Part shown: positions 34,211 to 37,199 of the stretch, piece by piece
How positions within the stretch are numbered: the stretch's first letter is position 1
Layout of the letters: each line of letters begins with the position of its first letter
Virus record (IMG/VR): IMGVR_UViG_3300025674_000009
Location: 1 to 37,199 of that record
Reading direction: 5' to 3' (one strand)
Origin: a virus
DNA length: 37,199 nt
The notes under the pieces: model-generated
What the model saw: the letters and a program-made list of their open reading frames with translations, nothing else
The model's database searches: none
Told to the model about the DNA's origin: nothing
Made by a program: the position numbers and the translations under genes

Positions 34211-34410
34211 CGAATACCCTACTTCAGGCAACCATCGTACGACGGTTTATTAGATTAGGTATTAAACCAGTCAAGGCGATGGATATGGTTAAGCGGATGA
34301 ATGAGGGCGATGCTATATTCATTGTCAGAAATCACATAAATTTAAAGCCCCTAATAATTTTAACATTAATCAAAAATCACATAAAACCAAATAATACAGA
34401 TGAGACCTGA
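34207..34410 (+). CDS. Small basic protein of unknown function
   Basis: A 67-aa protein from ATG 34207 (an in-frame GTG at 34180 would add nine residues). Helical and basic: LLQATIVRRFIRLGIKPVKA, MVKRMNEGDAIFIVRNHINL. AT-rich codons shared with the preceding two genes. It overlaps the helicase start by 11 bases. Unrecognised. Confidence 0.55.
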   Translation: MTNTLLQATIVRRFIRLGIKPVKAMDMVKRMNEGDAIFIVRNHINLKPLIILTLIKNHIKPNNTDET

Positions 34411-35557
34411 AGACGACCCATACTATAAAGCACAATTAAAAGCCATAGAACTCGAGTATATGCTCGACTCTCCAACTGTCACCAACATGCCAAACCGATC
34501 AATCGAGGTGAGGAATGACGATCCCAAACCACTTCCCGACATCATGTCATTCGGCCAGTGCATGGAGTTTGCCACTAACCCCGCCAATGAGCTTGAGGAG
34601 ATTATCGAGGGATGCCTCCACGAGGGATGTAAGATGATTATCTCGGGGTCCTCGAAAGCCGGTAAAACATGGTCCTTGATTAACTTGGCCATCGCCGCAT
34701 CCAATGGGATGCCGTGGCTGGGGATGCCGGTTAAGCAGTCGAAGGTTCTATATCTGGACTTCGAGCTTAAGAAATACTTTGGTACGGATCGAATAAAACG
34801 AGTGGCCAAGGCGATGTTTAAGGGAGAAATACCCAGTAACCACTACCTGGACTATTGGCCACTACGAGGTCACCGAACAGAATTGTTGGATCTCCTAACC
34901 AAGATACGAGTGGAAAAGAGGAACTACGAACTCATTATCCTCGACCCATACTACAAGCTGGCAACAGGTATAGACGAAAACGATGCCAGGGCGGTAGGCG
35001 AAATTGTCAATCTGATCGAGGATTTCTCCGAGGAAACAGGAGCCGCCATAGTATTTGCCCACCACTTCTCAAAGGGTAATAAGTCAGAAACGGATCATAT
35101 CGACCGAGCGAGTGGTTCAGGGGTATTCGCAAGAGATCCCGATGCCATCCTAACCCTAACCGCTCACGAAGAAGAGGAGCATCTTATCCTCGAAACCACT
35201 TCCCGAAACTGTCCATTCTTACCCCCAAAAGTCCTCGAATTTTCCGCTGAAACCTTCCCCCTTTTCGAGCATAAGCCCGACCTCGAGGCTAAGTTCAGAA
35301 AGCCAGGTCAAACCTCCTCAATCCAAAAAAAGATCAATGAGGCCTTATGCGATAAGTTCCTCGAGCTGTTAAAGGATAAGCCGATTGCCGGAAAAAACAG
35401 AGCAATTGAACTACTCCAAAAGCAAACCAATAACGAGGTCACCAGGGAAAGATTTGATAAGATTTTGAAGATGACGAAAGACCAAATTGAGGTCGAAAAG
35501 AATGGTCCGAACAATTCAAATACCTATTCTCTAAAGCTGAAGCTAAAAGCGGAATAG
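34400..35557 (+). CDS. RepA-like hexameric replicative helicase
   Basis: A 385-aa RecA-fold ATPase. Walker A GSSKAGKT is at residues 83-90, followed by IAASNGMPWLGMPVKQSKVL and YLDFELKKYFGTDRIK. Walker B is LIILDPYYK (Asp182), and AAIVFAHHFSKGNKSETDHI with DRASGSGVFARDPDAILTL is the sensor/arginine region typical of RSF1010 RepA-like helicases (AAA_25). The C-terminal part is a helical domain (INEALCDKFLELLKDKPIAG) probably for DNA or primase contact. Unwinds the template for PolA with primers from the gene at 32435. Confidence 0.88.
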   Translation: MRPEDDPYYKAQLKAIELEYMLDSPTVTNMPNRSIEVRNDDPKPLPDIMSFGQCMEFATNPANELEEIIEGCLHEGCKMIISGSSKAGKTWSLINLAIAASNGMPWLGMPVKQSKVLYLDFELKKYFGTDRIKRVAKAMFKGEIPSNHYLDYWPLRGHRTELLDLLTKIRVEKRNYELIILDPYYKLATGIDENDARAVGEIVNLIEDFSEETGAAIVFAHHFSKGNKSETDHIDRASGSGVFARDPDAILTLTAHEEEEHLILETTSRNCPFLPPKVLEFSAETFPLFEHKPDLEAKFRKPGQTSSIQKKINEALCDKFLELLKDKPIAGKNRAIELLQKQTNNEVTRERFDKILKMTKDQIEVEKNGPNNSNTYSLKLKLKAE

Positions 35558-35581
35558 TGCAATTAAATAGTCAGAAGAGTG

Positions 35582-35739
35582 GTAGTGTGTGCCCTTATAA
35601 TATAAAACACACACTACTCCTAGTAGGTGGAAAGGCTGTTAGTAGTGGGACGCTTGCGCTTAGCCTGTGGCCTTTAGCAGGCCACACAGGCAAAGCCCAT
35701 CCGCTGAAGCCGGCACACCTCCCACTACATTGCCAGCCT
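35582..35739 (+). ncRNA. Candidate structured RNA or cruciform element
   Basis: Dense perfect complementarity. Hairpin 1 is GTAGTGTGTG (35582-35591) with CACACACTAC (35608-35617). A long rod contains AGGCTG/CAGCCT (35633-35638 with 35734-35739), GTAGTGGGA/TCCCACTAC (35642-35650 with 35720-35728) and a 14-pair apical hairpin GCTT.GCCTGTGGCC (35658-35672 with 35680-35696, one mismatch and a 2-base bulge). A perfect TATAAT lies at 35596-35601 in the first loop. GTAGTG and CACTAC occur twice each, so alternative pairings are possible. An open frame crosses it, but its translation looks non-protein-like. RNA regulator, origin or packaging structure are options. Confidence 0.5.
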
Positions 35740-35766
35740 ACAAGCTCACTCGATTGGGAGAATAAA

Positions 35767-35997
35767 ATGAATCATCAGCTTAACCGATTAACCGGTGGAA
35801 CAGATATCACTCAGCCTACCCATTCACTCGTTATAAATCCTATGCCGTCTAAGAGGTATAAAGATAACCATCAGATAACCGATAAGAATACACTATCAGC
35901 AATCACAGCAAATCGGGCATTCAGAGGAATGGCGGGATTGGCGGTCTTATACCTTAGTATGGTAGATTGTATAGGTTGGAGGCTAAAAACGCTCTGA
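35767..35997 (+). CDS. 76-aa protein after the structured element
   Basis: From ATG 35767 with GGGAG about seven bases upstream: MNHQLNRLTGGTDITQPTHS, then KRYKDNHQITDKNTLSAITA and a hydrophobic helix (GMAGLAVLYLSMVDCIGWRL). The frame is open back to 35557, but the upstream part overlaps the palindromic element and has low-complexity translation, so the internal ATG is preferred. No family. Last rightward gene before the convergent leftward set. Confidence 0.42.
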   Translation: MNHQLNRLTGGTDITQPTHSLVINPMPSKRYKDNHQITDKNTLSAITANRAFRGMAGLAVLYLSMVDCIGWRLKTL

Positions 35998-36022: not shown

Positions 36023-36223
36023 CTATTCTGTCTTACTACCTTCAGCCCACTCGTCAATGATTTGTCCGGCAGATAATTTCTTCTGCTCGGAGAGATGTTT
36101 AATCTGATCCCTGGTAGCTGGATCAATCATGCAATGAAATTGGACTCGTTTGACTCCTTTGCGGTTCGGAGGTCTGCCTGTTTGGTTTGGGCGTTTTCCA
36201 CCCCATTGTTTTTTATCGGTCAT
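36023..36223 (-). CDS. Ribbon-helix-helix-like regulator
   Basis: A 66-aa protein. N-terminal basic GGKRPNQTGRPPNRKGVKRV is followed by QFHCMIDPATRDQIKHLSEQ and KKLSAGQIIDEWAEG, the strand-helix-helix arrangement of CopG/Arc-type DNA-binding proteins. The GxxGRPPN arm could contact DNA backbone or minor groove. Last gene of the leftward operon; start overlaps the previous stop (TAATG). Confidence 0.65.
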   Translation of the reverse strand: MTDKKQWGGKRPNQTGRPPNRKGVKRVQFHCMIDPATRDQIKHLSEQKKLSAGQIIDEWAEGSKTE

Positions 36224-36708: not shown

Positions 36709-36773
36709 AATCTAGCTTATCTTTACATAAAAGCAAGATATATTTTACATTTATTTTTAATAATGTTGTAAGT
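36709..36773 (-). promoter_or_regulatory. Leader/promoter repeat, second copy
   Basis: 62 of 65 bases match positions 1-65 (37088-37152). Reading leftward it contains ATGTAAAATATAT, then TTGCTT (-35-like), a 16-base spacer and TAGATT (-10-like), which ends seven bases before the ATG at 36701. The whole block is conserved right up to the -10 and the gene sequences after it differ, which marks it as a promoter plus operator. Confidence 0.65.
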
Positions 36774-36796
36774 CGTTACTCATGTGGTTGGTCTCC

Positions 36797-37087: not shown

Positions 37088-37152
37088 AATCTAGCTTATC
37101 TATACATAAAAGCAAGATATATTTTACATTTATTTTCAATAATATTGTAAGT
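37088..37152 (-). promoter_or_regulatory. Leader/promoter repeat, first copy
   Basis: Same element as 36709-36773, identical to bases 1-65. The TAGATT box (37093-37088 leftward) ends exactly six bases before the ATG at 37081, with TTGCTT 16 bases further up. TATCT and AGATA arms flank the -35-like box and could be a weak operator palindrome. Confidence 0.65.
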
Positions 37153-37199
37153 GGCTAATAATTAACGAGTTAAGAAACGAAAAAAATTACGATTCCACA
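37088..37199. repeat. Exact 112-bp terminal direct repeat, right copy
   Basis: Identical to 1-112. In the circular reading these are the same physical bases, which places the leftward gene at 37081-36797 directly downstream of the leftward gene at 633-100. The unique length is then 37,087 bp. Confidence 0.95.

Follow-up and report, generated by a model that had tools for sequence, protein, structure and literature searches.

The replication origins of PICI and SaPI phage satellites consist of iterons and an AT-rich region lying immediately 3' of the initiator gene, a layout that has been called unique to PICIs (PMC6092414). SaPI Rep and Cch2 both bind their iterons through the C-terminal domain, and in the Cch2 origin of SCCmec the AAGTG iterons lie, together with inverted repeats, behind the helicase gene (PMC7581432). 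In RSF1010, iterons are recognised by a separate protein, RepC, before RepA-type unwinding, and RepB' primes at ssi hairpins (PMC4234260). Finally, pRN1 carries a stem-loop of ~100 nt, conserved in structure and not in sequence, directly downstream of its replication-protein gene, and the pRN1 initiator has a C-terminal winged helix (PMC4234260). Our literature search found no paper on origins of Verrucomicrobiota phages, and the description of one lytic Verrucomicrobiota phage mentions neither a helicase nor a replication origin (PMC4642752).

Here we analysed a 37,199-base IMG/VR virus record (the window) from a virus whose host group is the Verrucomicrobiota bacteria. The window encodes a terminase, a major head protein/capsid, a DNA polymerase A and a replicative helicase. 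A first-pass annotation had noted a highly structured, probably non-coding element just after the helicase gene (stop at 35557) and before convergent, leftward genes (starting at 36023), and this placement and the stems, repeats and TATAAT that it listed are all present. The element opens 24 nt 3' of the helicase stop codon with H1 (35582–35617), a perfect 10-bp inverted repeat, GTAGTGTGTG (35582–35591) and CACACACTAC (35608–35617), arranged as GTAGTGTGTG-CCC-TTATAATATAAAA-CACACACTAC. The loop contains the AT-rich core TTATAATATAAAA (35595–35607), a putative melting site, and within it the TATAAT (35596–35601). Next comes E2 (35633–35739), an imperfect palindrome closed by a stem, P1 (AGGCTG/CAGCCT), that encloses the 9-bp inner stem P2, GTAGTGGGA (35642–35650) and TCCCACTAC (35720–35728), and further internal stems; the conserved 3' flank ACAAGCTC (35740–35747) follows. 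The third claimed stem, of 14 pairs, was found at 35655–35699 (GCCTGTG..CACAGGC and extensions) but is interrupted, with no clean 14 bp.

GTAGTG and its complement CACTAC each occur twice in the element, as had been noted, and we refer to these four copies as iterons. Copies 1 (GTAGTG, 35582–35587, + strand) and 2 (CACTAC on the + strand, hence − strand, 35612–35617) lie in the two arms of H1, inverted around the core; copies 3 (GTAGTG, 35642–35647, + strand) and 4 (CACTAC on the + strand, 35723–35728, − strand) lie in the 5' and 3' arms of P2. They make up 4 of the 13 copies counted in 37 kb, and nowhere else in the window are copies packed as closely. The fold of the element (201 nt) exceeded that of shuffled sequences on both strands (z = −3.85 on the + strand, −5.09 on the −), with 0/200 shuffles as good. 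H1 is also the window's sole hairpin combining arms of at least 8 bp with a TATA loop. Of four other near-full-length contigs, three likewise have such a lone hairpin where the helicase gene ends, G001 being the exception. GC skew along the window tracks gene direction and gave no clear origin signature.

The helicase (34400–35557, + strand; 385 aa) matches Pfam AAA_25 (E 3e-28), and its best PDB matches by Foldseek, 1nlf and 1olo (E 2e-11), are RSF1010 RepA, a replication helicase; Pfam found no primase domain in the protein. AlphaFold2 predicted a C-terminal domain of three helices and a two-stranded wing (residues 307–380, codons 35318–35539; pLDDT about 84–91), with a recognition helix at residues 349–358 (codons 35444–35473). 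Winged-helix regulators stand on top of its structural neighbours, matches that by themselves are not significant. The C-terminal ~90 residues are thus predicted to include a winged helix, a putative origin-binding domain.

How does this locus compare with the described origins? Like the SaPI/PICI rep-ori, it has iterons and an AT-rich region directly 3' of the putative initiator gene. In contrast, the window, which has genes for a terminase, a capsid and a polymerase, represents a phage and not a satellite, its initiator would be an AAA_25 RecA-fold protein of RepA type whereas SaPI/PICI Rep proteins are DUF927 or D5/Primase_Cterm, and the iterons and core are followed by the large structure-conserved palindrome E2. 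Because the initiator family differs and the window is no satellite, we do not class it as a SaPI/PICI-type member. The Cch2/SCCmec origin likewise has iterons and inverted repeats behind a helicase gene, but its helicase is D5-type and it belongs to a chromosomal cassette, not a phage. RSF1010 oriV shares the RepA-type hexameric helicase fold, iterons and hairpins nearby (ssiA/ssiB), but there RepC is separate, whereas the window helicase itself seems to bear the DNA-binding domain; no RepC was found among the window proteins scanned, which cover part of the ORFs. E2 resembles the pRN1 stem-loop in its large size, its place behind the replication gene and its conservation of structure but not sequence. 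Unlike the window, pRN1 lacks iterons, and its initiator is a fusion of a primase-polymerase with an SF3 helicase; in the window, the hairpin comes after iterons and an AT-rich core, and the helicase has a RecA fold. By analogy, E2 could be a single-strand initiation site, as ssi in RSF1010, or a structural part of the origin, as in pRN1.

Helicase-based scans yielded several hundred loci, and our comparison set consisted of 92 distinct downstream sequences. An H1-like region ~20–30 nt past the helicase stop, followed by an E2-like palindrome, was found in each of them; in L050, whose helicase frame is broken, the H1-like region lies further from the stop, and the arrangement in L159, L203 and L204 differs from the rest. 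Across families the core stays near CCTTATATA or CTATATATA (only 13 bp in the window, which is short for an origin core, and longer in the L015 group only) while the arms turn over, their types including GTAGTGTGTG, GAGTGGTAGTAGTAG, GTAGTAGTCGTTG, ACCACCACCCC, ACTACTAGTGCAC and a short CCGAA/TTCGG. Similarly, the length of E2 varies between 56 and about 153 nt, P1 being kept and P2 replaced many times, and the 3' flank recurs in all families except the L066-like one. Arms nevertheless match their own partners: H1 arms pair at 10.7 within a genome against 6.7 with the arms of other genomes (58 distinct pairs), and P2 arms at 9.3 against 6.2 (38 distinct pairs), with 0/5000 permutations as good in either case. 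The check on homologues that the first-pass annotation had proposed came out in favour of a functional, non-coding element, with stems that stay paired despite full arm turnover and an open frame that is not conserved. Two loci, L264 and L265, are natural recombinants that join one family's H1 to another's E2 within tens of bases. A phage DNA similarity search with the element returned short chance matches only; most matches in a pattern scan with AGCCTACAAGCTCG were also chance, and the genuine-looking ones have the whole element. Altogether, the comparison establishes a fixed position, iterons beside an AT-rich core, and arms that turn over fully while their pairing is kept. We conclude that the element is real, conserved, functional DNA, most probably the replication origin.

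Does the helicase change with the repeats? We compared 622 pairs of helicases, which are non-independent, with AAA cores at least 95% identical, and found that the C-terminus (last ~90 residues) had a median identity of 94% when the H1 type was the same (n = 132) and 67% when it was different (n = 490). Thus, L066 and L063 are 99% identical over the N-terminus and core and 55% over the C-terminus; the window and L010, 99% and 67%. The differences centre in or just before the predicted recognition helix, the part of the protein most dependent on iteron type: its columns differ in 74–87% of different-type pairs and in <20% of same-type pairs, while AAA core columns mostly differ in 0–2%. The strongest positions include R351, E346, F352, T348 and E350 (the numbering of the column comparison runs 5 above these residue numbers). 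H1 and the C-terminus are adjacent, so linkage contributes part of this association. Discordant pairs, in which few lineages are involved, appear to separate H1 from E2: L239 and L264 have H1 in common and C-termini 93% identical with unrelated E2, the C-terminus of the L264 recombinant comes from the same family as its H1, and in the 39 pairs that combine near-identical E2 with different H1, median C-terminal identity is 62%. Within this alignment, then, H1 repeat type changes together with the predicted recognition helix while the helicase core remains constant.

In distant relatives (37–45% helicase identity), repeats and an AT-rich core again lie 3' of the helicase stop in all except L354, which has a long hairpin w/o a TATA core. 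The layout is looser, and the arms are direct repeats (GTGTCA, CTCAAA, GGACAA) beside a TATATA core. The viral L374 (~37% identity) carries three GTGTCA and one inverted TGACAC around CCTTATATATATA, and L405 and L412 share the GTGTCA motif; L357 has five CTCAAA/TTTGAG, L384 has GGTCCA repeats, and five GGACAA (L356) or five AACTTC (L355; AACTTC/GAAGTT) surround CCTTATAG. An AT-rich core with iterons on both sides, placed behind the initiator gene, therefore seems to be commoner than the precise hairpin that H1 forms in the window. Against shuffles, many genomes showed a modest iteron excess and several (e.g. L008, L064, L063, L197, L254, L204) showed none. In L374 and L405–L420, a GC-rich hairpin around GGACTCCTTAGTCC stands just past the AT-rich core, at the place of E2, which suggests an E2 counterpart in distant phages. 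L066-like loci have an extra direct repeat, TGTCTCAACTCTGTCTCAA, ahead of H1 within the first 40 nt past the helicase stop; this repeat and the TGTCTCA/TGAGACA repeats of L357 may be two iteron generations coexisting. A scan of a genome collection found only four relatives, all from Verrucomicrobiota assemblies. L353 has the full element, and L355 and L356 are larger contigs with tyrosine-integrase genes nearby. In both contigs (L355 6929–11696, L356 44–5210) a few kb contain the same origin type together with a related helicase and a tyrosine integrase, and these regions are possible small integrative elements or phage satellites.

Could the element act as RNA? The first-pass annotation had offered a regulatory RNA as one of three readings, and a structured non-coding RNA, regulatory or trans-acting, on either strand, with stems kept by compensatory change, would account for the very strong conservation of pairing and the low folding energy on both strands; the A-rich run ahead of E2 would read as a U-tract in a minus-strand transcript. 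A minus-strand RNA was in fact favoured at first, since the + strand showed A-C mismatches in 23 contexts and G-T in 6, and the minus strand had 23 G-U columns vs 5, and was dropped when shuffles reproduced the same strand difference. Moreover, wobble pairs are depleted relative to shuffles on both strands (1.6% vs 9.0% on +, 7.3% vs 16.7% on −). The helices are thus Watson-Crick on both strands, pointing to DNA symmetry rather than RNA. The repeated arms track the DNA-binding domain of the helicase, and in distant relatives the inverted arms give way to direct repeats, neither of which fits an RNA. None of 4227 Rfam models matched at gathering score, permissive matches being at chance level, in line with the annotation's remark that no known RNA family could be recognised; scans found no sigma-70-type promoter and no terminator in the element. 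The mutually exclusive folds that had been proposed fared no better: a 3' tail that competes for the H1 arm occurs in the L066-like subfamily (p<0.0005), and in the family of the window the test gave p=0.68. Since the competing tail is confined to that subfamily, a general RNA switch is not supported. We therefore consider a structured RNA very unlikely.

What, then, would the element do? The best explanation of these patterns is an iteron/AT-rich origin that directly follows the gene for its own initiator helicase and is accompanied by the structure-conserved hairpin E2. We think it highly probable that the element is the phage replication origin and is recognised by the helicase encoded just upstream; this, too, was among the three readings first offered, and the co-variation of iterons and helicase, the iterons of distant relatives and the uniqueness of H1 in the window support it. 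In the mechanism we propose, the C-terminal winged helix would bind the short iterons (GTAGTG/CACTAC) on either side of the core TTATAATATAAAA, and the RecA-fold hexamer would melt this core and load there. The GC-rich E2 could then become accessible as a single-strand hairpin at which priming starts or the replisome assembles. TATAAT is better read as one version of the TTATATA/CCTATATA core, for which a melting region fits better than a promoter. More broadly, these helicases may form a previously undescribed class of RepA-type (RecA-fold) phage initiators that carry their own winged-helix origin-binding domain and so do the work of both RepC and RepA in a single chain, with recognition helix and iterons exchanged together between near-identical phages to give compatible and incompatible replicon types, a proposal for and against which we hold the case to be evenly balanced.

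The same co-variation of iterons and winged helix would be expected if the helicase bound the repeats as an operator, for autoregulation and not for the start of replication, and the core does resemble −10 boxes (TATAAT, TATAGT). However, the site lies behind the helicase gene and not before it, a hexameric replicative-helicase fold, an AT-rich core and an adjacent conserved hairpin suit an origin better, and the published cases of such a layout are origins; an operator is to our mind more improbable still than an RNA. Least probable of these is a 3' untranslated or terminator region kept only to stop or protect transcripts: it would suit the gap that separates the rightward operon from the leftward genes, but no terminator was found in the element by the scan, E2 lacks a U-tract on the + strand, and both the match of arm type to helicase DNA-binding domain and the iterons around an AT-rich core would be left unexplained. 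Coding is rejected because the open frame that crosses the element in the window (35557–35997) is interrupted within the element by stop codons in most relatives, with indels that are not multiples of three, and the packaging-related cruciform also suggested at first is not indicated, as the element keeps to the helicase gene while the terminase gene is elsewhere.

Beyond the element, a short open frame occupies window positions 35767–35997 and the corresponding site in relatives such as L012, L036 and L252, and in many close relatives it ends in ...RGMAGLAVLYPSVVDYIGWRLKTL. Ahead of this end, the modules INPMPSKR, YKDKVRSITA and RAFDINPMPS are shuffled, duplicated and lost between near-identical phages, usually in frame, and the start codon is not conserved; the frame either encodes a small protein that is hypervariable or marks a hot spot of recombination. 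Further on, a 75-nt direct repeat, 91% identical (36709–36783 and 37088–37162), precedes two leftward genes and looks like a duplicated promoter/operator region. The leftward genes gave no convincing protein-family match.

It is rare for the origin of an uncultured phage to be located. In this case a probable origin is narrowed to ~160 bp and matched with the protein domain expected to read it, and because nature supplies about 19 swapped versions of the recognition helix with its repeat, a protein-DNA recognition code becomes directly testable. The locus also carries a caution, as inverted protein-binding repeats that turn over together can mimic strong 'RNA covariation'. The comparison suggests that a layout described as unique to phage satellites also occurs in ordinary phages and in integrated Verrucomicrobiota elements. 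If its function is confirmed, the phages studied here would be a counter-example to a PICI-only layout, and the shared layout bears on the source of satellite replicons.
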